A stretch of 36,505 nucleotides of DNA from Bacteroidota bacterium (GTDB taxonomy: Bacteria > Bacteroidota > Bacteroidia > Flavobacteriales > Flavobacteriaceae): assembly GCA_021793375.1 (NCBI GenBank), contig JAJYSY010000020.1, positions 1-36,505 of the forward strand. Direction: 5' to 3'. The notes below the pieces were generated by a model. It was not told the DNA's origin. It saw only the letters and a list, made by a program, of their open reading frames with translations, and did no database searches. The position numbers were made by a program, and so were the translations under genes. Positions 1 through 14,643 of this stretch are shown one piece after another (position 1 is the stretch's first letter; each line of letters begins with the position of its first letter).

Positions 1-468
1 TTCCAAAACCACTACCGGAATCCCATTGATGTAGATAATTCCATCCGGGATACGCTTTTCTGTGCCGACAATCTCTAACTGATTGACAAATTTATAGGTG
101 TTGTTTTTGCGGTTGGTATAATCAATGAGGTAAATCCAAATATCTTTCTGTTTTGGGTCTCCTGCCTGTGCATCGGCAGACAGGTCGCGTTTGAAAGAAA
201 AACCATCCGACAACCAACGCATAAAAGTTTTGTTGGTTTCATACAAATCAGAAGCTGGCAGCGTTTTTAGGCGAAGAATGATACTTTTGGCCTCTGAAAG
301 GGTTAAGCCTTCATTCTTGTATTTATTCAGTAAGAACTGCTCCAAATCTTCTTCAATCAAGACTTCATCTTCCTTCCGCTCAATCGTCTTACCTAAAACG
401 TGTGGATAGCCTTGTTCTGCCAAGAGCTGAACAAAGGTTTCTTCTAATTTATACTCGGTGAATTTCAT
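1..468 (-). CDS. hsdR: Type I restriction enzyme R subunit, N-terminal part (cut by window edge)
   Basis: The reverse strand from an ATG at 468 is open to the window edge (156 codons). It begins MKFTEYKLEETFVQLL and reaches PDGIIYINGIPVVVLE, the conserved nuclease-domain entry of HsdR (PD-(D/E)xK family; the following ExK lies outside the window). HsdR is the ATP-dependent translocase and nuclease that cuts DNA left unmodified by HsdM/HsdS. Its ATG overlaps the TGA stop of the AbiEii toxin gene (ATGA), so translation is probably coupled to the toxin-antitoxin operon rather than to hsdM-hsdS, whose hsdS lies 8.6 kb upstream. The assignment is secure from the N-terminus and the partner genes. 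Whether the rest of the gene is intact cannot be seen. Confidence 0.88.
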   Translation of the reverse strand, partial: MKFTEYKLEETFVQLLAEQGYPHVLGKTIERKEDEVLIEEDLEQFLLNKYKNEGLTLSEAKSIILRLKTLPASDLYETNKTFMRWLSDGFSFKRDLSADAQAGDPKQKDIWIYLIDYTNRKNNTYKFVNQLEIVGTEKRIPDGIIYINGIPVVVLE

Positions 469-1409
469 AGAATACGCTTTAATAAATTAGTAAACACTTC
501 TGCAACTTCTTCTTCCTTGGGAATTGGTCTATAAGCTAAAGCAGAAAGCTCACTCTGATATTTTTGTTTTAGTTGTTTCCAAACTGTAGAAAAATCCTTT
601 ACAAGAATCGATTCTTGCAAAGTATAATCTGCCCAACCTTTAGGCTCATCAAACATCTTTCTATCGTGATTTAATATTTCCTCAAACTTTGATTTAAAAC
701 TTTCTAAATTAAGAAACTGCTCTGTTTCTTTATCTGTTACTAAATAATACAAATCATAGAAGTGTCTTATTTTTTCAGAAATTGCTTGTATTTCATTTTC
801 ACCGAAAGAAACTCGAATGAGAGATACCATTTTCTCCATTAATGTTTGCTCCTTGTTCAAAACATTCAGCTTAAAAGGGACTAAATTATATTCAATTGCG
901 TATTTCTCATTTTCAGTCTGAGTTAGAAAATCATAAACCATTGGTTGAATCGTTAACTTCTGATATGGAAATGGATTGACAAATGAATTTATTTCAACTA
1001 TAATTTTATTGTTTGAGGTCTTTTTTTGAAGAGAAGGGTATTCAAAAATTGATTTTCTGAATCGTGATCCTTTACTGGTTACATTTTCAGTAATAATTTC
1101 TTTTAAACCTGCTGTAATTTCTTTTTCAATTGTACGTATTATCTTTTTCAGCTGGTTTCCACTATCAATTTCTTCATTAATTATAGCGATATCCACATCT
1201 TCTGAAAACCTTTCAATCAAATCAAAGCCTTTGGACAAAGAAGTCCCTCCTTTAAAAACAATTTTATCGGTATAATTACTTTTAAATAAACGAAACAGCA
1301 ATAGACTTATCCAATAGTCTTTTTCAACAAATTCTAACTTAATATGTAAGTGATCAGCAGTAGCTCTTAAAGTTTCGTGGAATAATTCTGGGTATTGGTG
1401 TAGTCTCAT
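465..1409 (-). CDS. abiEii: AbiEii-type nucleotidyltransferase toxin (type IV toxin-antitoxin)
   Basis: A 314-residue protein of the AbiEii/AbiGII family, nucleotidyltransferase toxins of abortive-infection systems that arrest growth and are countered by an AbiEi antitoxin. Counting from the chosen start, it has EKDYW at 29-33, the family motif KGGTSLSK at 53-60 and the metal-binding acidic motif SEDVD at 69-73. I chose the ATG at 1409 because it overlaps the antitoxin stop codon as ATGA and gives the usual MRLH start. An in-frame ATG at 1421 would add four residues and overlap the antitoxin by 16 bp. The stop codon overlaps the hsdR start, also as ATGA. Family assignment is strong. The actual target (tRNA or other) is not deducible. 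Confidence 0.88.
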   Translation of the reverse strand: MRLHQYPELFHETLRATADHLHIKLEFVEKDYWISLLLFRLFKSNYTDKIVFKGGTSLSKGFDLIERFSEDVDIAIINEEIDSGNQLKKIIRTIEKEITAGLKEIITENVTSKGSRFRKSIFEYPSLQKKTSNNKIIVEINSFVNPFPYQKLTIQPMVYDFLTQTENEKYAIEYNLVPFKLNVLNKEQTLMEKMVSLIRVSFGENEIQAISEKIRHFYDLYYLVTDKETEQFLNLESFKSKFEEILNHDRKMFDEPKGWADYTLQESILVKDFSTVWKQLKQKYQSELSALAYRPIPKEEEVAEVFTNLLKRIL

Positions 1410-2131
1410 TTTATATTCCATTTTTTAGTTGTTGACAACACTTTTTCTGCTTCCGTCAACTGATAGGTGGTAATAGGGTTTAGGGTTTCAAAGAGCGTTT
1501 CAGTTTCCCTTTCATAGCCCAATTCATCTAACAAAGCTCCTAATAAGGCTCTTGTTGAAGGCGGGTATTTTTTTGCTAAACGCATTAAGACTTCTCTTTC
1601 GTTTTGTTTGAAAGCTTTAAGAATAGCCAAGAAACGCTTACACAAAAACGCTATACCGGCATCCGGAATTTTTTTGATATAACGTAACGCATCCAACAAT
1701 TGCAAATAAGGAACATTCTCTTTGGTTATAGTATTCTTCTGCTTTACAAAGGAAATAATATACCTTCCTCTCTTCAATTTTGGACGAATTTGATTTCGTC
1801 CTATCTGAATTACATTGCTAACCTGAGTGGTCAATGCCATTTTGTTATAAATACTATAGCCGGTAAGATAACCAATAATCTTTCCGTCTTCTTCAAGCAA
1901 ATCTTTGACCACCTGCTCTTCTGAAGGTTGTAATTCTCCAAAAACTGTTTGTTTAGGCTTGTAAAACTTTCCCTTAGACAGCTTGGCGATTTCTCCGGCA
2001 TCTGCCATTCGGTTTAAAGCTTTAATAATTGCTTGTGCTTTATGCACCTTTGTTACAAAATCCAAATAAGTGAAAACGTATCCTTTTGGAAACCTATCGA
2101 TAGTAAACGCTATGTAATCAGTTGTTTTCAT
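1406..2131 (-). CDS. abiEi: AbiEi-type antitoxin / transcriptional repressor (DUF6088-like)
   Basis: A 241-residue protein upstream of and overlapping the AbiEii toxin gene. The first 60 residues form a winged-helix domain ending in AKLSKGKFYKP, the pattern of AbiEi/DUF6088 antitoxins, in which this domain binds operator DNA. The C-terminal part carries the antitoxin activity in characterised AbiEi proteins. Two strong inverted repeats and a TATATTTG box lie directly upstream, consistent with negative autoregulation of the operon. Order, overlap and size match known AbiE modules. There is no frameshift or truncation. It is predicted to control toxin expression and, through the overlapping reading frames, also hsdR. 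Confidence 0.85.
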   Translation of the reverse strand: MKTTDYIAFTIDRFPKGYVFTYLDFVTKVHKAQAIIKALNRMADAGEIAKLSKGKFYKPKQTVFGELQPSEEQVVKDLLEEDGKIIGYLTGYSIYNKMALTTQVSNVIQIGRNQIRPKLKRGRYIISFVKQKNTITKENVPYLQLLDALRYIKKIPDAGIAFLCKRFLAILKAFKQNEREVLMRLAKKYPPSTRALLGALLDELGYERETETLFETLNPITTYQLTEAEKVLSTTKKWNIK

Positions 2132-2145
2132 TTGTTATTAGAATA

Positions 2146-2153
2146 CAAATATA
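2146..2153 (-). promoter_or_regulatory. Bacteroidota -7 promoter box of the abiE operon
   Basis: The reverse strand reads TATATTTG, an exact match to the Bacteroidota sigma-A -7 element TAnnTTTG. It lies 14 bp before the AbiEi ATG and just downstream of the inverted repeats at 2161-2190. No clear -33 TTG was located at the usual spacing. Confidence 0.6.
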
Positions 2154-2160
2154 ACTTATT

Positions 2161-2190
2161 TGTCCAGTTTATTATGTAAAAAACTGGACA
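2161..2190. promoter_or_regulatory. Proximal operator of the abiE operon (inverted repeat)
   Basis: Perfect inverted repeat with 10-bp arms, tgtccagttt (2161-2170) and aaactggaca (2181-2190), separated by 10 bp. It lies immediately upstream of the -7 box. Its half-site TGTCCAGT resembles TGTCAAGT in the distal repeat, which suggests two sites for one repressor, most simply AbiEi. Confidence 0.6.
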
Positions 2191-2199
2191 TTTGTTGTT

Positions 2200-2241
2200 T
2201 ATAAATGTCAAGTAAATAAAACAGAGTACTTGACATTTATA
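2200..2241. promoter_or_regulatory. Distal operator of the abiE operon (15-bp inverted repeat)
   Basis: Perfect inverted repeat with arms tataaatgtcaagta (2200-2214) and tacttgacatttata (2227-2241) and a 12-bp centre. Paired with the 2161-2190 repeat it forms the double-operator layout expected for AbiEi-type autoregulation. It could also form an RNA hairpin, but no T-run follows, so a terminator is less likely. Confidence 0.55.
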
Positions 2242-2253
2242 GAAATTACATCC

Positions 2254-2273
2254 AATTTATATTCGGTGAATTT
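2254..2273 (-). repeat. hsdR-start scar, copy 2
   Basis: The forward strand reads aatttatattcggtgaattt, which matches the hsdR start region (446-465) at 19 of 20 positions. On the reverse strand it would encode KFTEYKL, as hsdR does, and it follows directly on the stop of the gene ending at 2272. A reading frame from an ATG at 2279 runs about 23 codons and stops. I read it as a fossil hsdR 5' end left when the abiE cassette was placed in front of the live hsdR. Confidence 0.6.
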
Positions 2274-2997
2274 ACTCATTGTAGGTAGCGAGATATAAAA
2301 AGGCTCTGCCTTTATTTGTTGTAAAATACTTTTGAAACCTACTTGTAGGTCTATCTTTTATCGTTCTTGTTACTAAACCTTTATCCAGCAAAGGTTCCAC
2401 ATTATTCCTAAAATTTTTAGTCTGATTGGATATTCCTAAACAGTCTTCAAGGATTTCTCTTCTGTTTTTCGGAGAAAGACAATAATCAAGTATCTTTATT
2501 TCGTTTTCTTCCAACTCCTTGGCTTGTTCATAATATTTTTCGAATGTCTTAGAAGAAATTCGTTTTTCTTTAAGTAGAAAGCCTTCTTCCAATATTTTTC
2601 GTGCCTTATCGGAGGCTAATATTTTTTCTATCATTGTGGAGTAAGGCGTAGCTTCTTGGTTACTTTCTTGGTTACCATCTTGGTTACTGTCTTGATTACC
2701 ATCTTGGTTACTGTCCCGGCTTTCAACTATATTTTTAGGAAACACCACTCTTAAAAAATTCTCAGAAAAATGGAAACTGTCTTTATCATAACTTTCTAAA
2801 ATCCTGGGAATTCCCGAACCTAATTGCTCTACCAAATCCAAATCTTTAAAGATTCGCATCAATTCTTTATTTCTAAGAATGGAAAAACCTTCAAAGAATT
2901 CTTCCTCGGATAAGCCTTGAGGCAAGCTACCATTAGAGATAAATTTAGAGGCGACTTTTTGTTCGTATTCAATATGTTGGTTTTCAACAAACTTCAT
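2272..2997 (-). pseudogene. AlbA_2-type ATP-binding regulator, internally deleted
   Basis: A 241-residue open frame. The first residues, MKFVENQHIEYE, look like the start of the AlbA_2 (AAA_4, divergent) ATP-binding domain. From about residue 20 the sequence matches the far C-terminal part of such proteins: SLPQGLSEEEFFEGFSILRN, then LGSGIPRILESY, then a winged-helix-like region. The roughly 200 residues expected between them are missing, so the frame is probably an in-frame deletion derivative with no ATP-binding domain. Residues 97-115 are a low-complexity run of NQD/NQE units encoded by a near-perfect 12-bp repeat. It starts 3 bp after the ATPase stop, so the two genes form an operon. It may still express a DNA-binding remnant. 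Confidence 0.55.
2652..2713 (-). repeat. In-gene 12-bp tandem repeat coding for NQ(D/E)(S/G)
   Basis: About five head-to-tail copies of a 12-bp unit (forward strand ttggttactgtc / ttggttaccatc), alternating in a 24-bp pattern. They encode the NQD-rich linker of the AlbA_2-type remnant. Because 12 is a multiple of three, copy-number change would preserve the frame. Confidence 0.6.
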
Positions 2998-3000
2998 AGG

Positions 3001-4446
3001 CTAAACAATATTTTGATCGTTCTTCATTCGAATTGTTTTTTCACCAATATTATAGGCATAAACCGAAGCCGGTAAATAGGTGAATTTTAAATCATCTATC
3101 TCTTTCACTCCTGCTTCATTTATCGAAGTAACTAAGGCCGAATGAAAATCATTGCTTTTACAAAACTTTATCAGACTTTTTAAATCTTGCGGTTTCTTAA
3201 AATATCTATCGCTATATTTTACCTCTACCGCCCATAAAGGTTTAAATTTTTTATCATCAAGTAATACCAAATCAACTTCTCCATCTCCCCATCGTGCATA
3301 GGTTAAATCTAAATTTTCACGGTGCATCCACTGCGATAAAATAGCCGTTTCTACCATATTTCCCATTTCATTATCGGTTTCCTGAATAGGAGAAAACAAG
3401 GCTGTTCGTAAAGACGGATTGGTCAAATAAACTTTAAAATTTGTAATTCGTTTAAAGCGTTTTGCATTTATATCCACTTTATGCAATACTTTTATAAGGA
3501 AAGCTGCTTCCAAATATTCCAAGTATTTTTTTAGCGTCGCCGTGCCAATTCCACTTTCCTTAGCCATCTGTGTATAAGAAAACTCGTTGCCTGAATTATA
3601 AGCGATATAGGTAAAAAACCGATTCAATTCTTGTACATCTTTAATTCCATATAAACTGGGCAAATCGCGCAACAAAACTTTATCTACAATATCACTCTTT
3701 ACGTAACGCCCCATATCCGATTGAATCGTCTCCGATAAAACAACTTCAGGGTACCCCCCATAATTCAAATAATTGACAAATTCTTTATTCAGAATTTTCA
3801 AATCACGGGCAAGGTATTGTGGAACTTTTACGTCATTATAAATGATGTTGTCCTCATATATTAAATTATTTAATTTCTTAAGGTGAATATATTCCTGAAA
3901 AGTGAGAGGTGGCAACATAAAATCGGTAAAACGACCGGCTCCGCTTTCTGAACTATACCAATTTAGAGCAGCAGCTGCTGAACCTGAAACTATAAACTTA
4001 ATCTCGGGAAAAGAATCGACCAAGACCTTTAAATGACGTTCCCAATCTTTTAGATATTGTATTTCATCAAAAAACACATAAGCCCCTGCCAGACTCTCTT
4101 TTTTCAAGGCTTCTTTGGCTAACTGAAGAATATCTTCCAATCCCAAATTAATATAGATAGGATTATCAATTCCTACAAAAATAAGGTTTTGCGGGGTTTC
4201 TCCTTCTTTGAGTAATTGATCTATGGTGTGAAACATCATCACTGTTTTCCCAACTCGTCTGGGCCCCATCAACACCACAGCCCGGCGCACATCTCTTTCT
4301 TGTACGTACGGGTAAAACAAATCAAAATAAAGTCGTCGATTCATCTTTTGATAAACTGAATCAATCTCTCCCGAAACCCACCAAGGGTTTTCATATTGAA
4401 GCCGATTGATAATTTTATCTCTTGGAATAGGACTTGTTATTGCCAT
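3001..4446 (-). CDS. AAA ATPase with C-terminal DUF4143 domain
   Basis: A 481-residue P-loop ATPase of the AAA_14 plus DUF4143 type. Walker A is GPRRVGKT at about 61-68 and Walker B is YVFFDEIQYL. A winged-helix-like middle is followed by DUF4143, ending near WAVEVKYS, an ExK-type nuclease-like motif. Such genes are common in accessory regions of Bacteroidota, and their function is mostly unproven. I chose the ATG at 4446. A longer frame could begin only at a TTG at 4467, but that TTG lies inside a promoter box (TATATTTG, 4465-4472). The stop is 3 bp from the truncated AlbA_2-type gene. A role in phage defence is inferred from location only. Confidence 0.75.
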   Translation of the reverse strand: MAITSPIPRDKIINRLQYENPWWVSGEIDSVYQKMNRRLYFDLFYPYVQERDVRRAVVLMGPRRVGKTVMMFHTIDQLLKEGETPQNLIFVGIDNPIYINLGLEDILQLAKEALKKESLAGAYVFFDEIQYLKDWERHLKVLVDSFPEIKFIVSGSAAAALNWYSSESGAGRFTDFMLPPLTFQEYIHLKKLNNLIYEDNIIYNDVKVPQYLARDLKILNKEFVNYLNYGGYPEVVLSETIQSDMGRYVKSDIVDKVLLRDLPSLYGIKDVQELNRFFTYIAYNSGNEFSYTQMAKESGIGTATLKKYLEYLEAAFLIKVLHKVDINAKRFKRITNFKVYLTNPSLRTALFSPIQETDNEMGNMVETAILSQWMHRENLDLTYARWGDGEVDLVLLDDKKFKPLWAVEVKYSDRYFKKPQDLKSLIKFCKSNDFHSALVTSINEAGVKEIDDLKFTYLPASVYAYNIGEKTIRMKNDQNIV

Positions 4447-4451
4447 TTCAA

Positions 4452-4524
4452 TTCTTATTTCATTCAAATATACAAAAATAAGAACATTGTAGCATGCTTA
4501 TTTTGTAGTTTATTTGAAAATAAG
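4452..4524. promoter_or_regulatory. Alternating inverted half-sites around the ATPase promoter
   Basis: Four copies of one short motif alternate in orientation: ttcttattt (4452-4460), aaataagaa (4476-4484), cttatttt (4497-4504) and aaaataag (4517-4524). They flank and overlap the -7 box, an arrangement typical of operators that bind a dimeric repressor, perhaps the product of the downstream regulator gene before it was truncated. The region is AT-rich, so chance similarity is possible. Confidence 0.35.
4465..4472 (-). promoter_or_regulatory. -7 promoter box of the DUF4143 ATPase gene
   Basis: The reverse strand reads TATATTTG, an exact TAnnTTTG match, 18 bp before the chosen ATG. It rules out the longer TTG start of the gene, which would lie inside the box. 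Confidence 0.55.
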
Positions 4525-4558
4525 AGGTTAATACAAATATTACATCTGTTATTTTGTG

Positions 4559-4583
4559 AATTTATATTAGGTGAATTTTATAG
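4559..4583 (-). repeat. hsdR-start scar, copy 3
   Basis: The forward-strand core aatttatattaggtgaattt (4559-4578) matches the hsdR start at 18 of 20 positions and scar copy 2 at 19 of 20. The match extends to 4583 with tatag against catag, so the former start codon ATG now reads ATA. It follows the remnant antitoxin gene exactly as the live hsdR follows the intact toxin gene. Confidence 0.55.
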
Positions 4584-4709
4584 GCTTCTTCTATCACAGA
4601 TTAAATAAATACCGTGCGCTATGCGCCGTAAAATACCTTTTTGTTCTAAGCGAGATAAAACTTGTCGAATATTTTCAGGTGTACTGTAACTATCTAAATA
4701 CTCATACAT
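4578..4709 (-). pseudogene. Remnant of an AbiEi/DUF6088-like antitoxin gene (winged-helix fragment)
   Basis: A 43-codon frame starting MYEYLDSYSTPENIRQVLSR and continuing through GILRRIAHGIYLI before stopping. This is the DNA-binding wing of AbiEi/DUF6088-type antitoxins (SP-x-x-IRQ-x-LSRL-x-x-KG-x-L-x-R-I-x-x-G-x-Y). The rest of the antitoxin and any toxin are missing. It sits between the end of the CRISPR array and an hsdR-start scar. It is not the same sequence as the intact AbiEi at 1406-2131, so it probably came from a different toxin-antitoxin module that once occupied this slot. A frame extending upstream through two CRISPR repeats is spurious. Confidence 0.5.
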
Positions 4710-4757
4710 AATAATCTTATTAAAAATAAATATAACAAGTGAGAAAAAATAAAAAAT

Positions 4758-5584
4758 GTTGTGTTCACCTTTCAAAACTAAGGCAGATACAACATAAGGA
4801 AATTTAATCTTAAACCGCCACCGGTTGTGTTCACCTTTCAAAACTAAGGCAGATACAACAACAAGCAACTAAATTAAGATTAGAGGGGTGTTGTGTTCAC
4901 CTTTCAAAACTAAGGCAGATACAACAAATAATAAATTAGATAGAATTGAATTGTTGTTGTGTTCACCTTTCAAAACTAAGGCAGATACAACAATGGAAGA
5001 AAACTTAGCAGGATTATGATTGTTGTGTTCACCTTTCAAAACTAAGGCAGATACAACAATGGATGATGCTCAAAGGAAGCAGATGGAGTTGTGTTCACCT
5101 TTCAAAACTAAGGCAGATACAACGAAAGGATAGAAATCTACTTGAGAAAAACTGTTGTGTTCATCTTTCAAAACTAAGGCAGATACAACATGGCAGAATT
5201 TGAACAAGAGCACGAACAGGTTGTGTTCACCTTTCAAAACTAAGGCAGATACAACCGGCACAGGATTAGCATTTGAAATACCGGAGTTGTGTTCACCTTT
5301 CAAAACTAAGGCAGATACAACCATTTCTAAATTATTTGGAATACAATCACATTGTGTTCACCTTTCAAAACTAAGGCAGATACAACTATGATTTACATAT
5401 ATATGAACCGTCTCCTGTTGTGTTCACCTTTCAAAACTAAGGCAGATACAACCAAGAAGTTTTAAATGCACCTAACTATGATGTTGTGTTCACCTTTCAA
5501 AACTAAGGCAGATACAACGAAGTCGGGTTAACTGCCACAATCGATGGCGTTGTGTTCACCTTTCAAAACTAAGGCAGATACAAC
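4758..5584 (-). CRISPR. Type VI-B CRISPR array, 13 repeats and 12 spacers
   Basis: Thirteen 36-bp repeats start at 4758, 4824, 4890, 4956, 5022, 5088, 5154, 5220, 5286, 5351, 5417, 5483 and 5549. Spacers are 30 bp (29 before the repeat at 5351), so the period is 66 bp, the length of a mature Cas13b crRNA. On the reverse strand the repeat begins GTTGTATCTGCC and ends GGTGAACACAAC, with complementary GTTGT/ACAAC ends and an inner CCTT/AAGG pairing. This resembles known Cas13b repeats and gives the same transcription direction as cas13b. Eleven repeats are identical. The one at 5154 has a C-to-T change in its forward-strand TTCACC, and the one at 5351 has A in place of its first G. No spacer was seen to match the rest of the window by eye. 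Confidence 0.97.
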
Positions 5585-5690
5585 ATAGAAACTGTAAAGT
5601 ATTGTTCTATAAAGATTAATATTAATTTGTCTTTACAAAAAGACAACAATACTATCAATTTAAATTGTCAAAGAACTTAATTTGTCTATT
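5585..5690 (-). promoter_or_regulatory. Presumed CRISPR leader between cas13b and the array
   Basis: About 106 bp of very AT-rich sequence between the cas13b stop and the first repeat on the transcription-proximal side. It contains a perfect 8-bp stem with a four-base loop (ttgtcttt 5627-5634, aaagacaa 5639-5646) and a 12-bp palindrome attaatattaat (5615-5626). No T-run follows the stem on the reverse strand, so it does not look like a strong terminator. It may be a leader element, a processing site or a weak attenuator. No convincing TAnnTTTG box was found. Confidence 0.5.
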
Positions 5691-8600
5691 CTAAAAAATA
5701 TCGAGTTTTTTTATATAATTAAGAATATTTTCTGCTACATTATTAGCGTTATTAGACTTCGAAAGCATTACATTATAATATTTTTTAATGGGTAGTTGAT
5801 TATGTGCAAATTTATTTCTGATATAAATAAGCAAGAAAGCATCTTGAACTTTCTTTGGCTTTTTCTGAAACAACTTAATGGTTTCTATGCTTTCAAAAGA
5901 ACTTTCTTTTAATCCCTCAATCCATTTAACATCTTCTTCTTTAACTGAACTATCTTTTGATAAAATTCCTTGTGTAATATATTTTTTAAAATTGACATTT
6001 CCTTTTAACATTAAAGATTCCGGATGATTTTCGTTATTAAAATTATGTTTCTCTAAAACCTTTTTTTCAATTTTTTGTATTAACTTAAATACTTCTTCCC
6101 GTCGAATTCTTTCATAATTTTCCAATTCGGTTTCTATTTCAGATTTTGTCCAAGTTTTTAAAGTGTCATATTCAAAAATCCTCTTTACTTTTTCATCTTT
6201 TATAAGTTGTATAAACTTTCCTATATCTTTCAATTGAATGGTTGGCTCATTAATTTGCCCAGATTTAAAAGAAACTATTTTGCTCCAGATAAAATCATCT
6301 TTAATAATATTCTCAGATTTATCTCCTTTTGCTCTTTCACTTTGTTTTTGAGCTTCTTTTTGCTTTTCTATTCGCTCCTCTTGCGTTAAATAATAATCAA
6401 CCAATTCTGTTTTTACTTTCTGATTATATAAATCTTTCAGAATTCTTTGTATCATAAGATTTAAAAAAAGATCTTGTCCTTTAATTTTCTTTATTTTATT
6501 GTCTTGCTTTCTTTTTAATAAATTAAGTTGCTCATTTTCAGATAAATCATATTTATTATTAGTAAAAATCGAGCTGTTTTTTTTACTTTCAAATAAATCT
6601 TTATAATCTCTTTCCCAAGAATAAAATTTTTGAAAATTATGATTCTCATTCAAAATAAATCGATACCAACAAGCATATAACTCTGAATCTTCTTTTAAAT
6701 TTTTACCTTTAATATAAGTTGGTTTTTCATTAAAAACACCTCTTGGAAAAACCAAAGGCTTAAGTAATAATTCATTTTTCTGCTGTTTTGTAGATGAAAT
6801 TTTAAACAATCGTTTATGAAAGATGGACCAAACAAAATATTGTTTAAAGAATTTCTTGAGAAGTTTCTTATTTTGCTTAAATCCATTAAGTTGAGTTTTC
6901 AAAGTTTTAAAATAATCTTTCCTTTGTTTTAAATACTCTATATAAAACTGATCAAAATATTTTTTCTGAAAAGTTTTATCTAACCATGTATTGAAAAAAT
7001 AAGTATTTTCTTTCCAATTCCACTGCTCCATTAAAAAATGCGCTGCTTCATCTTTTTTACTTTCATAAAATGCTAAAAATTGTTGTAACTGACTATGTTG
7101 GTATCCTTTCCAGTTGTTTTTAATCTCTTTGGGCATAAAACGTTTAATATCATCTGCAAGCCAAGTAGCTTCTTGTCCTAATTCTTTATTGGTAAATACA
7201 AACCTCCTTTTATTACTTCTATCTTTTAACTCTTTCCTATTTATTTCAATTAAAGATTGTTTTTCATTGGTAATAAAAAGTTCATTTTCGATAGCACGCA
7301 ACAATTTTTCAACATCTATTATTGTTTCCTTGCCTGACTTTCTTAATTTTTTAGTGATTTGTGAAGTTGGTAATGGGTCTTCAGGATTAAATTTTGTGAT
7401 AGTTTTATGTCTTTCAATTAGCTTCTCAATTAAAATATCTTCGATTTCTGCTCCTGTTTTCTTATTAATTAATACTTCATACAATAATGCCTGCATTTCA
7501 TTCATAGAAAACAAAACAGTAGGTTTACCAAAAACAATATTTCCTGAAAGTTTGTTTAATATATCTTTTTTTGAAGGCTTGTTTTCTTTTCGTGCAATTG
7601 TCTTTTGTTGAACTTCTAATTGTTTTAAAGACCCAAACAATTCACCTGCACCTTTGACTTTAGATTTTCGTAAATCGATGTAGATAGGTATGTTATTCCC
7701 TACAAAATTATAAGAAGGATTTGGAAACATTTCCCAAGCTGTTTCTTTGTCTAAAGATTTATAAAAATCAGCTTTAATACTGGAAATCTCAGAGAGCTTC
7801 CCAAAACCATTGATTTTTTCTTTAATAACCCTTTCTGTTTTATATTTTGTTCCTACAATCGTTTTCTTTCTGCTGTCGTGAATATAATTTCCGATATGAA
7901 TCTGAAACCTAAGTGTTGGAAAATCCACAAATTCATCTAAGAAGCGTAAAGCAAAATAATTAAACTTATCTTCATATCGTTTTCGAATAACAGGATGAAC
8001 CACCCGACTCCTTTCTAAACTTTTTGTTATTTCGCTATCTTTTAAATATTCATTTACATCTTCTATAAATTTATTTTTTTGTTTTTCTGTAAATGTTTGA
8101 TACAATTCATCTGGAACTTTACTTAATTCATCTGCAATCTGAGTTAATAAAGTTTCTTTATAAAAAGTAGTATTTAATCTATATTTAATTGTTTTAACTG
8201 ACAAATGATTAAACACCCAATGTGTTGCCATATATTTTAGGCTGTTATTTTTTCGGTCAATTGGTTTATCTGTATTCACAATTACCTTTGCTTTGTATCC
8301 TTTTATATTTGCTCTTAATTGTTCATTTTCTCTTCTTTGTAAGAAAATGCTTAATAAAAATATCAAACCCGATTCTGAAATATTTACTTTGTTTTCAATT
8401 TCATCTTGTGCATCTAATTTTGATTTATAATTATTATTGACAGATTCTTTGTAAAGCAAATGTTGAAAAGCATCATTAAAGACTGCATTTTCTATGGACT
8501 CAGGTTCTAAATTAACTCTTTTACCTTTTTTTCTTTGATTTTCTAAATAAGTAGTCTTTAGTTCAATAAGCTCCTTGATTTCAGAATTCAGTTGTTTTTT

Positions 8601-9110
8601 AAATAAATGTCGGCTTTGATCCCCTTTCATTTTTTGTTTTTTCACATCTGAAACTACAGCAAGAAACAACTTGTCTAACAACTCGAAAAGGTTTTTATCA
8701 AAATCAATAGGTTCATGATAATAGTGAGAATAATAGTTTCTTAAATATTTAATTCCATTAATCAAAAGCTTGAAGTTATCTCTAAAGTATTCTCGCTTAG
8801 CAATTTCTTTATCTTTTGTATCTTTAAATTCATCATTAGTAATTTCTAAGTCTAAATAAAAAGTAACAGGAAAATATTGTTTAAGAAAATCAAGTTTTCT
8901 TTGATATTCGGAATTTGCTAAATCATCTTTAAATTGATCGTTGATTATAGATAAAGCATTCGTTTTAGAAAGTCCAAATCTTTCACAAAACAATCCAAAA
9001 ACAGCTTCAATATTATTTTGAGCTAAATTTAAAAATCCTGCAAAATAATGCTTATCTTGAACTAAAGTATGATTGTATTCTATTCCTTTACCTAATTGAT
9101 TAGTTTCCAT
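5691..9110 (-). CDS. cas13b: Cas13b, RNA-guided RNase of type VI-B CRISPR systems
   Basis: A 1139-residue protein with one HEPN motif near each end: RNYYSH (R124-H129) and RNKFAH (R1098-H1103), the RxxxxH catalytic pairs. Terminal placement of both HEPN domains and the length are diagnostic of Cas13b. Cas13b processes its own crRNA, binds complementary RNA and then cuts RNA, including bystander RNA, in the cytoplasm. Both catalytic pairs are intact and there is no frameshift, so activity is expected. The start is 12 bp after the hsdS stop, with no promoter box visible between, suggesting co-transcription with hsdM-hsdS. The CRISPR array follows 106 bp downstream in the same direction. Neither csx27 nor csx28, the usual VI-B accessory genes, is adjacent, and no cas1 or cas2 is in the window. 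Confidence 0.97.
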   Translation of the reverse strand: METNQLGKGIEYNHTLVQDKHYFAGFLNLAQNNIEAVFGLFCERFGLSKTNALSIINDQFKDDLANSEYQRKLDFLKQYFPVTFYLDLEITNDEFKDTKDKEIAKREYFRDNFKLLINGIKYLRNYYSHYYHEPIDFDKNLFELLDKLFLAVVSDVKKQKMKGDQSRHLFKKQLNSEIKELIELKTTYLENQRKKGKRVNLEPESIENAVFNDAFQHLLYKESVNNNYKSKLDAQDEIENKVNISESGLIFLLSIFLQRRENEQLRANIKGYKAKVIVNTDKPIDRKNNSLKYMATHWVFNHLSVKTIKYRLNTTFYKETLLTQIADELSKVPDELYQTFTEKQKNKFIEDVNEYLKDSEITKSLERSRVVHPVIRKRYEDKFNYFALRFLDEFVDFPTLRFQIHIGNYIHDSRKKTIVGTKYKTERVIKEKINGFGKLSEISSIKADFYKSLDKETAWEMFPNPSYNFVGNNIPIYIDLRKSKVKGAGELFGSLKQLEVQQKTIARKENKPSKKDILNKLSGNIVFGKPTVLFSMNEMQALLYEVLINKKTGAEIEDILIEKLIERHKTITKFNPEDPLPTSQITKKLRKSGKETIIDVEKLLRAIENELFITNEKQSLIEINRKELKDRSNKRRFVFTNKELGQEATWLADDIKRFMPKEIKNNWKGYQHSQLQQFLAFYESKKDEAAHFLMEQWNWKENTYFFNTWLDKTFQKKYFDQFYIEYLKQRKDYFKTLKTQLNGFKQNKKLLKKFFKQYFVWSIFHKRLFKISSTKQQKNELLLKPLVFPRGVFNEKPTYIKGKNLKEDSELYACWYRFILNENHNFQKFYSWERDYKDLFESKKNSSIFTNNKYDLSENEQLNLLKRKQDNKIKKIKGQDLFLNLMIQRILKDLYNQKVKTELVDYYLTQEERIEKQKEAQKQSERAKGDKSENIIKDDFIWSKIVSFKSGQINEPTIQLKDIGKFIQLIKDEKVKRIFEYDTLKTWTKSEIETELENYERIRREEVFKLIQKIEKKVLEKHNFNNENHPESLMLKGNVNFKKYITQGILSKDSSVKEEDVKWIEGLKESSFESIETIKLFQKKPKKVQDAFLLIYIRNKFAHNQLPIKKYYNVMLSKSNNANNVAENILNYIKKLDIF

Positions 9111-9122
9111 GATTTTAATTTT

Positions 9123-10250
9123 TTATTCTTTTGTCATCCGCCCCAACAACAAAGACTGAAGCTGATGAAGTTTTTGATTTTCTCGTGTATACAATTCCTT
9201 ATTGTCAATTATAATTTTCAATTCCTTTAAATCGATGTCATTATCTGGATAAGGGATCTCAATATTTTCTATATAATTCTTACTCAGATTCTGTTGAGCT
9301 CCACCAATTGCCTGAGAAGCAATGTAATTTTGGTTATGAAGTAAATGGTAATATAAAAATGCAGCTTGCTCAGCATTTTTACAAATCATTCCACAACAAG
9401 CTTGATTTGTAGTTGCTTCAAATCTCAGAATTCCCAAATCGCCTGCATTTACACCATACATAGACATTAATACAGTCCCCACTGGGAGCAATTTAGCTGA
9501 ACTTTTTTCTAATCCTTTTTGAGAAATATATTCCTCTGCCTCAATAAGAATATTGTTTTTTATTTCTCCCGTTTTTAACCAAGGAATCTCTTTCTTATCC
9601 CAATATTCATTTTTTGTTCTTCTTGGCGTTCCGCCTGATTTCATTTCTACGCAAAAATCTTTTACATTTATATATTTAAGAGAATCATTTTCCTCAAACC
9701 ACCTTCTATAAATCGTCTGTGCGGTTTCTTCCAACTTCTCGCAAATTGCTTCGTTGGTTTTGATTTTATTTTCAACCGCTTGGTAATCGGCTACAATTTC
9801 ACGTTGTTTTTCGATGGGAGGAATGGGTAATTCCACCTCACACATTTCTTCCCAATCAAAAGTTTCTCTTGCACTCCCGTGACTTTTAAATCGGGCATAG
9901 CGGTCAAATTCGGGACGCGAAAACCACATCATTAAATATTTAGGTAGAAGTTTTTCTTTATCCTTAATTTTAAAGGGAATATAAGCTTGGGAAATTAAAG
10001 CTTTATCGTAATCATCAAATAAAGCGATTGTAATTTTATCACCATTTCTGGAGGTAACCGGACCATAAGCAAATTGATCTCGTTCTATAATTTTATATCG
10101 AGTCATATTCGTTCCAATCGTATTGGCTATGGAAGGAATAAAGCATTTCTGAATACTCAATCCCATCAATGGAATATTCAAGTTTTCCTTATTCCGAACA
10201 TTTACTTTCTTGATATAATCGCCTAAACGCTTGTAATTTGCTTTTTCCAA
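9123..10250 (-). CDS. hsdS: Type I restriction-modification specificity subunit S
   Basis: A 375-residue HsdS with two target-recognition domains (about 1-150 and 190-340). Each is followed by a helical conserved region: IPPIEKQREIVADYQAVENK with IYRRWFEE in the middle, and LHQLQSLLLGRMTKE at the end. HsdS sets the bipartite DNA target and bridges two HsdM and two HsdR subunits. The start is a TTG codon at 10250, directly after the TTAATGG repeat field. An in-frame stop lies in the repeats and there is no ATG between. The first residues (NYKRLGDYI) look like a normal HsdS beginning, so the gene is probably complete. Only one hsdS copy and no invertase are seen here. Confidence 0.93.
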   Translation of the reverse strand: MEKANYKRLGDYIKKVNVRNKENLNIPLMGLSIQKCFIPSIANTIGTNMTRYKIIERDQFAYGPVTSRNGDKITIALFDDYDKALISQAYIPFKIKDKEKLLPKYLMMWFSRPEFDRYARFKSHGSARETFDWEEMCEVELPIPPIEKQREIVADYQAVENKIKTNEAICEKLEETAQTIYRRWFEENDSLKYINVKDFCVEMKSGGTPRRTKNEYWDKKEIPWLKTGEIKNNILIEAEEYISQKGLEKSSAKLLPVGTVLMSMYGVNAGDLGILRFEATTNQACCGMICKNAEQAAFLYYHLLHNQNYIASQAIGGAQQNLSKNYIENIEIPYPDNDIDLKELKIIIDNKELYTRENQKLHQLQSLLLGRMTKE

Positions 10251-10263
10251 TGAATAGTTTTTT

Positions 10264-10541
10264 TTAATTGTTAATGGTTAATTTTTAATGGTTAATTTTT
10301 AATGGTTGATTGTTAATGGTTAATTGTTAATGGTTAATTGTTAATGGTTAATGGTTAATTTTTAATGGTTAATGGTTAATTTTTAATGGTTAATTACTAA
10401 TGGTTAATTTTTAATGGTTAATGGTTGATTTTTAATGGTTGATTTTTAATGGTTAATGGTTAATTTTTAATGGTTAATGGTTAATGGTTAATGGTTAATT
10501 TTTAATGGTTAATTACTAATGGTTAATTTTTAATGGTTAAT
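10264..10541. repeat. TTAATGGTTAA-type repeat field, downstream of the four-helix-bundle gene
   Basis: About 280 bp made almost entirely of 12-20 bp imperfect units of the form TTAATGGTTAATTTT and close variants, with some TTGATT and TTACTAATGG versions. It fills the gap between hsdS and the four-helix-bundle gene and supplies that gene's last codons (INH and stop). Length variation by slippage is likely and could alter hsdM-hsdS spacing. Confidence 0.85.
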
Positions 10542-10889
10542 TCTCGATTTGGCTGTTTTTAGAATGGCAGTGATTAATTTGATTAGTTCAATGGCATCTT
10601 TATGCATGCTCTTAAATTCTTTATCACTTATATAGTCCGTTTCCTTCAGTAATTCCAACCAGTAAATGGTTTCATTCATTTCTTTTTGAGCGATAGCCAT
10701 TTTATGAATAAAATCTTTTTTTGTTTCAGCGTGCTCCGCCTCCCTTATCATCGCTCCTACACTCGTTCCACTTCGCATCATTTGCTTAGATAGTATAAAT
10801 TCCCCCTTTTCATCACATAGAAATTTATAAAGCTCAACTATTCGCACAGCGAATAAAAAACTTTTGTCTTTAACTACATTTTCTCTCAT
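10530..10889 (-). CDS. Four-helix-bundle protein (S23/intervening-sequence protein family)
   Basis: A 119-residue all-helical protein of the four-helix-bundle (TIGR02436, S23 or 23S rRNA intervening-sequence protein) family. Family signals are the FILSKQMMRSGTSVGAMIREA region, then KDFIHKMAIAQKEMNETIYWLELL, then a terminal helix LIKLITAILKTAKSRI. Relatives occur in 23S rRNA insertions and as accessory proteins of diversity-generating retroelements, and are often seen beside type I RM genes. A biochemical role is unproven. The gene lies between hsdM and hsdS and is bracketed by repeat fields of opposite orientation. Its last codons are themselves repeat sequence, which suggests that gene and repeats travel as one unit. 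Confidence 0.85.
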   Translation of the reverse strand: MRENVVKDKSFLFAVRIVELYKFLCDEKGEFILSKQMMRSGTSVGAMIREAEHAETKKDFIHKMAIAQKEMNETIYWLELLKETDYISDKEFKSMHKDAIELIKLITAILKTAKSRINH

Positions 10890-10898
10890 AATATTCTA

Positions 10899-11087
10899 TC
10901 ATTAACCATTCATCATTAACCCTTCATCATTAATCCTTCATCATTAATCCTTCATCATTAACCATTTATCATTAACCCTTTATCATTAACCCTTTATCAT
11001 TAACCCTTTATCATTAACCCTTTATCATTCACCCTTTATCATTAACCATTCATCATTAATCATTAATCCTTTATCATTAATCATTTA
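10899..11087. repeat. CATTAACC-type repeat field, upstream of the four-helix-bundle gene
   Basis: About 190 bp of imperfect 12-13 bp units of the form TCATTAACCCTT / TCATTAACCATT / TCATTAATCCTT. It is the reverse-complement type of the field at 10264-10541, so the two fields form a pair of inverted arrays around the four-helix-bundle gene. It fills the whole gap between that gene and the hsdM stop. Confidence 0.85.
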
Positions 11088-11090
11088 CCA

Positions 11091-12764
11091 CTAAATCCCA
11101 TATCCCAACTTTTCAAAAACGCCTTTCACTTCTTCTTTCAATCTTTCTTCTTCTGCAAATAATTCTTTTAATTCACCTTGCAGTTTTTCCATCTGATCTT
11201 CATAATCCAAGTATTCATCACGGTTAACAAACTCAATATATTTACTCGGTACTAAGGAAAAATCTTTCTTTTCAATTTCCTCAAAGTCGGCTGAGTAACA
11301 ATATTCCGGCACATCTTTATAAGGATTAATTGTTAATGGTAAATTGTTAATGTCCTTTGTTTCGCCTTCATTAACCATTGACAATTCATCATTAACCATT
11401 GGCCTCGACTGCCATTGATGATAGGTTTCTGTTACCTTTTCAATATCTGTATCGGCCAACTGGATGTATTTCTTTTCAAAGGGTTCACCCATTTGGCGTA
11501 AGTCCATAAATAAGACTTCGCCTTTTCGGTTTCGTAGTTGGCGTTGTTCATCTCCTGTATCTTTTATACCTCCCAACTTATTTTTATTAAGAATCCAAAG
11601 CGTTACAGAGATATCGGTGGTATAAAACATATTTCTCGGCAAAATCAAAATAGCTTCCACCAAATCGTTTTCAATCAGTTTTTTACGAATTTTATATTCA
11701 TCGCCTCCTCCGGACAAAGCGCCATTCGCCAAAATAAATCCGGCTACGCCATTTTCAGAAAGTTTGGAAACCATATTGAGAATCCATCCGTAATTGGCAT
11801 TACTTTTTGGCGGCACTTCATAACCTCGCCATCTTGGGTCATCAATGAGTTCATCTGCTCCGCGCCAATCCTTTTGATTAAATGGCGGATTAGCCATAAT
11901 AAAGTCGGCTTTTAAATCTTTGTGTTGGTCTTGTGCAAAAGTATCAGCTGCTTTCTCTCCCAGATTGGCAGAAATTCCACGAATGGCCAAATTCATTTTT
12001 GCCAGCTTATAGGTCGTATTGGTGTATTCTTGTCCATAAATGGAAACCTCTTTTTTATCGCCGTGATGAGCTTCGATAAACTTAACAGACTGCACAAACA
12101 TTCCACCTGAACCACAAGCCGGGTCATAAATGATTCCCTTGTAGGGCTCAATCATTTCGGCAATAAGGTTCACAATGGTTTTAGGTGTATAGAATTCTCC
12201 CTTCCCTTTTCCTTCTTTTAAAGCAAATTTGGATAGGAAATATTCATAAACCCGACCCACAATATCGGTTGAGCCGTCTTTAATCGTATCGATTTCACTG
12301 ATTTTATCAATCAATGAAGCCAGTTTGGTTTTATCCAACCCTAAACGAGAGAAGTAATTGTCCGGCAACGCGCCTTTCAATGAAGGATTATTCTTTTCTA
12401 TGGTGTGTAAAGCCGTATCGATAATCAGTGCCAGGTCATTTTGCTTGGCATTCTTCTGAATATAAGACCAGCGCGAAGTCTCTTTCAAATAGAAAACATT
12501 TTCCATTGCATAGAAATCTTTCATTTCTATATACTTCTCTTTCCCTTCTTCAATAAGTTCTTCTCGACGTTGCTCAAATTTATCACTGGCAAATTTCAGG
12601 AAGATCAGTCCTAAAACAATGTGTTTATATTCTGAAGATTCAACAGATCCTCTTAATTTATCACAAGCCTGCCATAAGCTTTCTTCTATTGATTTCCCGC
12701 CTGCCTTCTTCTTGCCTTTACTGGGGCGGGCAGGTTCTTTCTTTGTAGTTTTCTTTTTTGTCAT
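11091..12764 (-). CDS. hsdM: Type I restriction-modification DNA methyltransferase subunit M
   Basis: A 557-residue N6-adenine methyltransferase. It has a lysine-rich N-terminus, the HsdM N-terminal helical domain (about 25-165), KGEFYTPKTIV leading into the SAM-binding motif DPACGSG at 214-220, and the catalytic NPPF at 292-295. A coiled C-terminal tail (EEERLKEEVKGVFEKLGYGI) contacts HsdS. The start codon follows the control-protein stop with no gap. Residues about 455-481 (PMVNDELSMVNEGETKDINN and the next few) are encoded by the same TTAATGG/CATTAACC repeat that fills the next intergenic regions. They break the usual TYHQWQ...YKDVPEYC stretch without breaking the frame. The enzyme is probably still active because the insertion lies outside the catalytic core. 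Confidence 0.95.
   Translation of the reverse strand: MTKKKTTKKEPARPSKGKKKAGGKSIEESLWQACDKLRGSVESSEYKHIVLGLIFLKFASDKFEQRREELIEEGKEKYIEMKDFYAMENVFYLKETSRWSYIQKNAKQNDLALIIDTALHTIEKNNPSLKGALPDNYFSRLGLDKTKLASLIDKISEIDTIKDGSTDIVGRVYEYFLSKFALKEGKGKGEFYTPKTIVNLIAEMIEPYKGIIYDPACGSGGMFVQSVKFIEAHHGDKKEVSIYGQEYTNTTYKLAKMNLAIRGISANLGEKAADTFAQDQHKDLKADFIMANPPFNQKDWRGADELIDDPRWRGYEVPPKSNANYGWILNMVSKLSENGVAGFILANGALSGGGDEYKIRKKLIENDLVEAILILPRNMFYTTDISVTLWILNKNKLGGIKDTGDEQRQLRNRKGEVLFMDLRQMGEPFEKKYIQLADTDIEKVTETYHQWQSRPMVNDELSMVNEGETKDINNLPLTINPYKDVPEYCYSADFEEIEKKDFSLVPSKYIEFVNRDEYLDYEDQMEKLQGELKELFAEEERLKEEVKGVFEKLGYGI
11325..11400. repeat. Repeat pair inserted in frame inside hsdM
   Basis: A left arm of TTAATTGTTAATGG-type units (11325-11352) and a right arm of CATTAACCATT-type units (11369-11400) flank about 16 bp. 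Arm types and orientation are the same as in the two fields around the four-helix-bundle gene, but the gene is absent. It looks like a miniature, gene-less copy of that element that entered hsdM without shifting its frame. Confidence 0.6.
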
Positions 12765-12968
12765 TTATTTTTCAGTATTAGATTCAAGTAATTCACTTAC
12801 ATCGACCTTCAATGCTTCTGCTGCTTTGTATAAATCTTCTAACGAAGGTTGTTGCACATTGCTGCACCATCTGGAAATAGTTACTTGGCTTTTGTTGAGC
12901 TTTTTGGCCAGCCATTTGTTTGGCCTTTGTTTTTCTTTCAAAACAGCTTTGATTCGGTTAAATTTCAT
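12765..12968 (-). CDS. XRE-family helix-turn-helix control protein
   Basis: A 67-residue Cro/C1-type protein. Its helix-turn-helix is KWLAKKLNKSQVTISRWCSN, followed by QQPSLEDLYKAAEALKVDVSELL, typical of single-domain XRE regulators. It is the first gene of the RM operon and its stop abuts the hsdM start codon. Small XRE proteins in this position (C proteins) usually time methylase and nuclease expression. That role is inferred from position and size. Confidence 0.85.
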   Translation of the reverse strand: MKFNRIKAVLKEKQRPNKWLAKKLNKSQVTISRWCSNVQQPSLEDLYKAAEALKVDVSELLESNTEK

Positions 12969-13233
12969 TAAAATAAATTGGATAGCGTTAGACGATAAAC
13001 TTAACCTTATTTTTCTTCTCTACAAATTATAAATACATTATATTCTGCTACAGAAAGAAAAATATTAATTAACGCGAAAGCTATTTTTTTAGGTAAAGAA
13101 AAACATCCTACACCAAAATTTACCCTACCAAACAACAAAATCAATGAGATTCTTTTCTTCAAGAACCTCACCTCTACGCATTCAAATGATATTCAAAAGA
13201 CCTTAATAAATCAATAATAATCAATTAATTACC
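12969..13233. other. Gene-free junction between the defence island and mnmE
   Basis: About 265 bp of AT-rich sequence between the control-protein start and the mnmE stop. It must carry the RM operon promoter, but no exact TAnnTTTG box was found (TATAATTTG at about 13021-13029 on the reverse strand is close but has one extra base). No strong terminator, tRNA or attachment-site repeat was recognised. Confidence 0.5.
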
Positions 13234-14643
13234 TTACTTCCCAATACAGAAATTAGCAAAAATATTCCCCAACAAATCGTCTGTGGTGATCTCTCCGGTG
13301 ATCTCTCCGAAGTAATATAAAGCTTGACGGATATCTATGGCTAATAAATCTCCGGAAAGTTCCATGTTTAAACCTTCTTGCACTTGATTGATTTCTGCTT
13401 GGGCTTTTAACAAGGCGTCATAATGACGTGAATTAGTGACGATGGTGTCGTTGTTGCGAAGTGCTCCGGTATCTACATAGTTTTTTAATTTGTCTTTTAA
13501 TTCTTCGATTCCGATTTTCTTTTTTGCGGAGATAAATTGTAAATCTGTTCCGGCGATGTGCCCTAAAGTTTCTTCTAAATCAGCGATTTCTTCTGCTTTT
13601 AATAAATCTATTTTATTGACAACAATCAAAAACGGCTTATCGGGAAAACGATTTTTTATCCGGTTGATTTCTACAATCATTTTTTGTTTATCCGTTTTGC
13701 TTATCGCTTGAATACTGGGAATCATCAAAAGAGCAATAGAGGCTTTTTGAATTTTTTCAAAAGTTTTCTGAATTCCCAATTCTTCAATCTGATCTGTAGT
13801 TTCACGAATTCCGGCGGTATCTATAAATCTAAATCCTACGCCGTCTATGGAAATTTCATCTTCTATGGTGTCTCTTGTGGTTCCGGCAATATCACTAACA
13901 ATGGCTCTTTCTTCGTTTAGCAAAGCATTGAGCAAAGTAGATTTTCCGGCGTTGGGTTCGCCCACAATGGCTACCGGGATTCCTTTTTTCAACACATTTC
14001 CTACTGCAAAAGAATCTATTAATCGGTTCAAAGTTTTTTGAATTCTAAAAACCAATTCTTGAAATTCTTCTCTATTGGCGAACTCTACATCTTCTTCAGA
14101 AAAATCTAATTCCAATTCAATTAAAGAAGCAAAGTTGAGAAGTTCTTCTCTTAGTTTTTGAATTTCATTTGCAAATCCGCCTCTCATTTGGTTCATTGCC
14201 AACTGGTGTGCAGCAGCATTATCGCTGGCTATTAAATCTGCTACGGCTTCTGCTTGGCTTAAATCCATTTTTCCGTTGAGAAAAGCACGCATGGTAAATT
14301 CTCCGGGGTTAGCTGCTCTACAGCCTTGACGCAATAATAAATTGATGATTTCCTGTTGAATAAACGGACTTCCATGGCAAGAAATTTCTACAGTTGTTTC
14401 TCCGGTATAAGAGCGTTTTCCTCTAAAAACAGAAACTAAACTTTCGTCTATAATTCTTTCTCCGTCTTTGATAAATCCCAATTGCAGAGTATGAGATTTC
14501 TGCTCTTGTAAACTTATTTTACTTCGGGCTTGAAAAACAGGAGCAGTAAAATTAATGGCATCCGGTCCGGAAATTCTGATAACAGCTATTCCTCCACTTC
14601 CGGGAGGTGTTGCTAAAGCGACAATGGTTTCATTTAAAAGCAT
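13234..14643 (-). CDS. mnmE: tRNA modification GTPase MnmE
   Basis: A complete 469-residue MnmE. The N-terminal tetrahydrofolate-binding domain begins NETIVALATPPGSGGIA. A central helical domain follows, then the inserted G domain with GEPNAGKS (228-235), the switch region GTTRDT and DTAG (275-278), and the C-terminal FCIGK whose cysteine is conserved in the family. With MnmG it makes the 5-carboxymethylaminomethyl modification of wobble uridine in tRNA. The first residues align with the usual family start. A TATCTTTG promoter box ends only 4 bp before the ATG, so the mRNA is probably leaderless or nearly so. Confidence 0.97.
   Translation of the reverse strand: MLLNETIVALATPPGSGGIAVIRISGPDAINFTAPVFQARSKISLQEQKSHTLQLGFIKDGERIIDESLVSVFRGKRSYTGETTVEISCHGSPFIQQEIINLLLRQGCRAANPGEFTMRAFLNGKMDLSQAEAVADLIASDNAAAHQLAMNQMRGGFANEIQKLREELLNFASLIELELDFSEEDVEFANREEFQELVFRIQKTLNRLIDSFAVGNVLKKGIPVAIVGEPNAGKSTLLNALLNEERAIVSDIAGTTRDTIEDEISIDGVGFRFIDTAGIRETTDQIEELGIQKTFEKIQKASIALLMIPSIQAISKTDKQKMIVEINRIKNRFPDKPFLIVVNKIDLLKAEEIADLEETLGHIAGTDLQFISAKKKIGIEELKDKLKNYVDTGALRNNDTIVTNSRHYDALLKAQAEINQVQEGLNMELSGDLLAIDIRQALYYFGEITGEITTDDLLGNIFANFCIGK

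Follow-up and report, generated by a model that had tools for sequence, protein, structure and literature searches.

A type VI-B CRISPR-Cas system in the hsdS-hsdR cargo slot of a type I restriction-modification operon from Flavobacteriaceae

We analysed a 36,505-nucleotide stretch of DNA (hereafter the window), contig C16 of a draft Flavobacteriaceae genome (GCA_021793375.1; 2.34 Mb in 101 contigs, 88.9% complete), in which a type VI-B clustered regularly interspaced short palindromic repeats (CRISPR)-Cas system lies inside a type I restriction-modification (RM) operon. The order along the minus strand is a helix-turn-helix (HTH) regulator gene, hsdM, a four-helix-bundle gene, hsdS, cas13b, the CRISPR array, an AAA_14/DUF4143 gene, a truncated HATPase_c_4 gene, abiEi, abiEii and hsdR. 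Comparison with related operons makes it very probable that the hsdS-hsdR junction is a standing bay for swappable defence cargo, occupied in this genome by a type VI-B system gained through horizontal transfer, a PDC-S01 ATPase gene, relics of earlier cargo and an AbiE gene pair.

The interval between hsdS and hsdR

In the window, the slot between hsdS and hsdR spans 8654 bp (469–9122, minus strand), with defence genes on the strand of the RM genes and tight junctions at both ends: cas13b begins 12 bp past hsdS, and abiEii overlaps the start of hsdR by 4 bp. This 12-bp spacing had been given by a first-pass annotation of the same DNA, whose single-strand placement of hsdM (11091–12764), hsdS (9123–10250), cas13b (5691–9110) and the hsdR start (468) proved exact. 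The HTH gene, the four-helix-bundle gene and a short AbiEi remnant past the array go unmentioned in that annotation.

To place this slot in context, we searched with the HsdM of the window twice, in overlapping runs covering 99 relatives and 289 family members (our labels for loci, genomes and contigs begin with L, G and C). Close HsdM orthologues, 60–85% identical over the matched part, occur in 21 other genomes, 20 of which show the full hsdS-hsdR interval; the tally leaves aside L092, whose contig ends in hsdS, as well as L067 and L068, where HsdM is only 42–44% identical and the interval holds open reading frames (ORFs) in both. Cargo sits between hsdS and hsdR in 18 of these 20 loci and in many combinations, so that within one RM lineage the interval behaves as a general port. 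No cargo ORF is present in L058, whose hsdS and hsdR share 4 bp, or in L061, whose interval measures 335 bp. Known or candidate defence families are represented in 17 of the 18 cargo loci, L059 and L094 being counted for an AAA_15/OLD-type ATPase alone.

Several of the cargo assignments were made through blastp to annotated neighbours. Kiwa occupies the slot of L062 (KwaA, E 3.1e-13; KwaB, E 5.3e-18), a CBASS set of patatin, cyclase, E2/ThiF and JAB that of L066, and Gabija or a Gabija-type system those of L095 and L097, respectively. Other loci hold TIR, SLOG and ThsB-TIR (L065), TIR/SLOG/TIR/TIR with SLFN_AlbA_2/HATPase_c_4 (L093), SIR2, HerA and a Fic-like_C-type protein (L089), or AbiU and Drt4 (L098). 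OLD and GmrSD_N are found in L063, a KAP NTPase and GmrSD_N in L064, an OLD-like protein, a reverse transcriptase and GmrSD in L091, AAA_15 and GmrSD in L096, and an ATPase, a GmrSD fragment and AbiE in L099. The remaining cargo consists of AAA_15 ATPase pieces and a Fic-like_C protein (L059), a putative RloC-type nuclease, a PDC-S26-type protein and SLFN_AlbA_2/HATPase_c_4 (L060), an OLD-like ATPase, Bro-N and a relative of the window HATPase_c_4 gene (L094), a PHP protein, a HATPase_c_4 relative, a fragment of the hsdR start and AbiE (L100), and a single 254-aa gene of no assigned family (L090).

At most 20 bp separate the hsdS stop from the first cargo gene in 16 of the 18 loci, and the last cargo gene comes equally close to hsdR in 12; small gaps and overlaps are approximate, as gene starts were called mechanically at the first start codon. 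Since so many first cargo genes abut hsdS, the 12-bp hsdS-cas13b junction is the usual build of the slot. The 20 orthologous intervals contain no cas13b blastp match and no array-like repeat; other cas families were scanned for part of the cargo proteins only. Cas13b within an RM operon is thus rare, while the slot itself is not.

Reading the interval between hsdS and hsdR therefore offers a simple means of searching for new defence genes. Slot proteins of no assigned family are encoded at L090:4067-4831 (254 aa), L063:7860-8891 (343 aa) and L060:11671-12180 (169 aa), and relatives of the latter two recur in L091 (79%) and L097 (86%), respectively; we regard all three as candidates for unknown defence genes.

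Cas13b, its array and their acquisition

The effector encoded by cas13b (5691–9110, minus strand; 1139 aa) is intact in frame and scores 874 bits against the NCBIfam model NF038190 (VI_Cas13b; cut-off 150), with a PADLOC Cas13b match as well. Its two RX4H HEPN motifs, RNYYSH at residue 124 and RNKFAH at residue 1098, lie near both ends as in relatives, and a third RX4H match at 367 falls outside the HEPN positions. The protein is of ordinary length, 15 others measuring 1046–1224 aa. Adjacent to it on the same strand is an array (4758–5584) of 13 repeats of 36 nt and 12 spacers of 29–30 nt, in which 11 repeats are identical and the other two carry one base change each. Compared with 12 other arrays found near cas13b genes, the repeat in the cas13b sense outscores its antisense in all 12, with a clear margin for Bergeyella zoohelcum (17 versus 3) and a narrow one for L057, L071 and L082; beside the cas13b genes of L054, L081 and L086, no array was found. 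A simple RNA fold opposes this orientation, with −10.9 kcal/mol for the antisense repeat versus −7.5 kcal/mol for the sense, so the predicted reading of the array in the cas13b direction rests on comparison with the other VI-B arrays. With an effector above the curated score, two HEPN motifs and an adjacent array with a VI-B-like repeat, the locus is assigned to type VI-B and predicted to perform CRISPR RNA-guided RNA cleavage. Neither Csx27 nor Csx28 appears among the matches listed for ten operon proteins, and the genome, at 88.9% completeness, yields no Cas1 match.

Such systems are sparsely distributed. In overlapping taxonomic samples, each including this genome, cas13b scored above the cut-off in 4 of 395 genomes at the level of the order, 4 of 395 for the class, 3 of 395 for the phylum and 6 of 397 for the family, one of the last six being decayed; seven named Cas13b relatives are all from Bacteroidota. 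We also observed a second, partial cas13b in G1401 (L082:5500-6312), ~8 kb from the intact copy. Among 15 cas13b genomes (14 others and this one, the hosts of L004, L006 and L007 lying outside the test), an HsdM_N match is present in ten and adjoins cas13b in one, that of the window; in the host of L002, it is ~92 kb from cas13b, if contig C1 is that record. Blastp of flanking ORFs against the window Hsd proteins revealed no hsd homologue beside any other cas13b, within contigs that are short for G1339 (5.2 kb), G740 (10.8 kb), G1090 (15.3 kb) and G617 (24.6 kb), where adjacency past the ends is possible; the RM loci of G1339 and G740, read separately, contain no cas13b. The survey for cas13b near hsd genes that the first-pass annotation had proposed has thus returned only this genome in 15, pointing to the uniqueness that the annotation itself had named as counting against its idea.

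Several observations support the horizontal acquisition of the type VI-B system, which is part of the explanation that we hold to be very probable. The G+C content of cas13b is 0.262, against 0.34–0.40 for hsdM, hsdS and both hsdR parts. In a 16-row Cas13b tree, the window protein groups at support 100/99 with its nearest relative, a protein from Chitinophagaceae (58% identity), apart from the same-family proteins of G148, G1339, G1401, G1246 and G1090, with several deep branches long and unsure; the tree was built without the short or broken L006 and L007, the decayed G1118, matches below the cut-off and the second match in G1401, of 334 aa. As a control, the window threonyl-tRNA synthetase is 48% identical to that of the same Chitinophagaceae genome and 71–79% identical to those of six same-family genomes, a disagreement between gene trees that horizontal transfer predicts. 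The window Cas13b had no match on the plasmids or phages searched.

Scars of cargo turnover are also visible in the window, namely a 43-aa AbiEi remnant 3' of the array (4578–4709, minus strand; PDLC02226, E 4.9e-9) and an apparently truncated 241-aa HATPase_c_4/Fic-like_C gene (2272–2997, minus strand), of which L093, L094 and L100 carry fuller relatives; aligned directly, the truncated gene and the AlbA protein of L060 matched weakly (28% over 57 residues). Together with two relics in related loci, these remnants fit repeated exchange of cargo, for which recombination at hsdS and at the start of hsdR is a possible route. In L099, a 105-aa GmrSD fragment (L099:6046-6369) is 95% identical to a full-length gene of L063 (L063:8895-10685), which suggests recent transfer and replacement of cargo. 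A 72-aa ORF matching the hsdR start lies between two cargo modules upstream of full hsdR in L100 (L100:8784-9002), a possible scar of cargo exchange. Within the truncated window gene, 12-nt tandem repeats (2654–2715) encode a stretch rich in N, Q, D and G/S.

Operon layout, expression and competing explanations

All genes of the operon lie on the minus strand. A 67-aa HTH_3 gene (12765–12968), directly 5' of hsdM, is a possible operon regulator. It is followed by hsdM (557 aa; HsdM_N and N6_Mtase) and, after the four-helix-bundle gene of the 23S rRNA-IVP family (10530–10889; PF05635, TIGR02436), by hsdS (375 aa), which matches Methylase_S in two stretches and aligns with its relatives across almost its full length. 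The overlap of hsdM and hsdS seen in eight of nine relatives measured is replaced in the window by the four-helix-bundle gene, which is flanked by two arrays of 14-bp tandem repeats (10264–10542 and 10897–11089); a 53% identical copy of this gene lies just 3' of an hsdR-like gene on contig C9 of the same genome. Downstream of the array, the slot holds the AAA_14/DUF4143 gene (3001–4467; PADLOC candidate PDC-S01) and, past the truncated gene, abiEi (DUF6088; 1406–2131) and abiEii (465–1421).

The window carries only the first 156 codons of hsdR (1–468; HSDR_N) before the contig ends. Within the genome, the gene is best continued by contig C93 (L053; 1154 bits against the type I restriction endonuclease model), whose nucleotides 4–100 match the final 97 nt of the window minus strand exactly and whose frame continues for 930 codons. 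These features suggest that the two pieces form one gene, the C93 part of which contains GATGSGKS and a DEAH box. With hsdR completed in this way, hsdM, hsdS and hsdR are joined in one operon, and we predict a type I RM system with methylation and restriction activity. The bases that differ past the overlap (window 1–97; L053:4-100) may be strain variants near the cargo/hsdR boundary.

At the other end of the operon, mnmE adjoins its start (window 13234–14643), as it does in type I RM operons of G1087 (L066:2431-3840) and G740 (L103:9741-11132), where HsdM is only 43% identical to the window HsdM; this site may be an island hotspot.

Cas13b is probably expressed together with the RM operon. 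No terminator-like site lies between hsdM and cas13b, and a scan for Bacteroidota-type promoters (at most one mismatch to the consensus, without a shuffle control) produced matches upstream of the HTH gene at 13003–13219 and no match on the minus strand from 12343 to 6597. We also considered a dedicated cas13b promoter, which neither scan settles, sites of sigma-70 type being at chance level (56 found versus 58.7 expected) and the Bacteroidota-type scan having no match in that interval.

Several points weigh against this picture. Terminator-like sites were near chance (10 found versus 6.9 expected, s.d. 2.5), and because the promoter and terminator scans are at or near chance, the missing terminator between hsdM and cas13b is weak evidence of co-transcription. 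An 11-pair terminator-like stem lies within abiEii at 622–597, just 5' of hsdR, and the insertion of a gene between hsdM and hsdS might lower the expression of those that follow. The array leader contains a weak Bacteroidota-type promoter match at 5651, which may allow the array to be expressed separately. The end of hsdR spans a contig break, and the bases before the 97-nt overlap differ. Finally, the cores of 8 of the 12 spacers, scanned against viral_contigs, gave no exact match, and the array had only two weak matches in a phage collection (82% over 45 nt, 86% over 42 nt), which we rejected as targets.

A single transcript starting upstream of the HTH gene would carry cas13b along with hsdM-hsdS. 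HsdM and HsdS would modify host DNA and, as an enzyme with HsdR, cut unmodified incoming DNA; a spacer match to a phage transcript would lead Cas13b to cut RNA and arrest growth, with AbiE and the AAA gene as further layers. RM and Cas13b would act side by side as complementary layers without a need for physical contact, and their cooperation is plausible. Where the first-pass annotation had offered either a second layer of RNA interference behind DNA restriction or simple use of the RM transcript, we find the latter likelier.

The window could instead hold an evolved unit of two layers selected for joint action, in which Cas13b arrests the infected cell, HsdR destroys the phage DNA that sustains Cas13b activation and the cell recovers, the shared operon keeping both in step. 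By the title of a 2023 study by Williams, phage DNA restriction reportedly enables recovery from Cas13-induced dormancy, and the shared strand and 12-bp junction would fit such a unit, as would the sequence of events in Listeria, where CRISPR acts first and RM follows (PMC10535081). However, the pairing occurs in only 1 of 15 cas13b genomes and 1 of 21 orthologous RM loci, the tight junction is common to unrelated cargo, and with HsdM_N in ten of the 15 cas13b genomes, cooperation in trans would need no linkage, which leaves this explanation rather unlikely. On a tentative and broader reading, about which we are doubtful, this RM lineage would be a modular immune chassis whose port takes whole systems, including adaptive RNA-targeting CRISPR, and RM and Cas13b would here form a two-step programme on one transcript (arrest, followed by HsdR clearance and recovery). 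The slot also supplies a natural construct for asking if DNA restriction and the dormancy induced by Cas13 work together when encoded in a single operon.

That the RM enzyme keeps Cas13b inactive until phage anti-restriction releases it, a guard role modelled on the PrrC parallel of the first-pass annotation, we consider scarcely credible. The precedent is real, since PrrC is embedded in the type IC RM locus EcoprrI and activated upon inhibition of the RM enzyme (PMC12707154). The positional part of the analogy is also borne out in an orthologous operon: in L060 (G1109; HsdM 75% identical), the first cargo gene, directly after hsdS, encodes a 794-aa AAA_13 protein with PADLOC matches to PDC-S06 and, in the C-terminal part, to PrrC; it carries a P-loop at 41, the motif CAFC at 299 and R702-x3-E706...H746. 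As RloC is characterised by a zinc hook and an R-x3-E-x36-52-H triad (PMC2610378), this protein is a predicted RloC-type anticodon nuclease. For regulation, the analogy fails because type VI effectors act once target recognition activates them (PMC8730458), not upon loss of restriction. Nor does the genomic evidence point to a guard: by our own yardstick, a recurrent pairing of nuclease and RM, the same counts (1 of 15 genomes, 1 of 21 loci) show no conserved association, the junction is shared with unrelated cargo in 16 of 18 loci, and Cas13b is of ordinary length with both HEPN motifs. We have set the guard model aside on the lack of recurrent pairing and the ordinary Cas13b.

It is very unlikely that the neighbours met by chance, through mis-assembly or as a silent cas13b that merely landed there. 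The assembly is a draft of 101 contigs, hsdR is cut by the contig end, no target was found for the eight spacers scanned and the genome gave no Cas1 match; yet hsdS, cas13b, the array, abiE and the hsdR start share one contig, both slot junctions fall where those of the relatives' cargo do, cas13b is full length and the two deviant repeats are each off by a single base. The bay for exchangeable defence cargo, with a type VI-B system as its occupant here, remains our preferred explanation.

Embedded defences in other RM loci

We found no report of Cas13b or a CRISPR system inside an RM operon in the open-licence literature searched, most subscription journals and separate preprint collections being outside reach; a 2024 preprint by Payne on embedded defences is cited in two of the papers on embedded systems. 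The statement in the first-pass annotation that no system built this way had been described therefore holds for Cas13b within that literature and falls for the architecture, which four known systems already display.

Like the window, the E. coli prr locus (PrrC in EcoprrI) combines type I RM genes with an embedded gene for an RNA-cutting defence protein (PMC12707154). The RM enzyme silences PrrC, which cuts tRNA, whereas Cas13b is directed by a guide RNA and has an array and a trigger of its own. In Campylobacter jejuni, the rlo genes sit between hsdR and hsdS (PMC5183652), with RloC-type nuclease genes inserted in type I loci (PMC2610378) and the GmrSD-like RloF between hsdR and hsdS (PMC11411939); RloC is described as rarely linked to type I RM (PMC2610378), and the passages of these sources that deal with rlo do not mention CRISPR cargo.

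The RptR-RMS-DarTG2-M48 island of enteropathogenic E. coli resembles the window in order, with a small regulator, hsdM, hsdS, cargo and hsdR (PMC12255303), and its authors termed the DarTG2 site a potential recombination hotspot (PMC12255303). Its cargo, unlike that of the window, is a toxin-antitoxin pair, and we liken the window HTH protein to RptR by position. TgvAB of Vibrio cholerae VPI-2 is likewise a second defence system inside a type I RM cluster, proposed to be complementary (PMC11411939), with a type IV restriction system as the cargo. The type VI-B system of B. zoohelcum, for its part, shares with the window a Cas13b with two HEPN motifs and repeats alike in the same sense, but there, provided that contig C1 is that record, ~0.32 Mb separates cas13b from the single HsdM_N match, whereas the window cas13b abuts hsdS. 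With PrrC, Campylobacter rlo, TgvAB and DarTG2, the architecture is already in print; Cas13b, seen once, is its new cargo and adds an RNA-guided CRISPR effector to the defences found between hsdS and hsdR.

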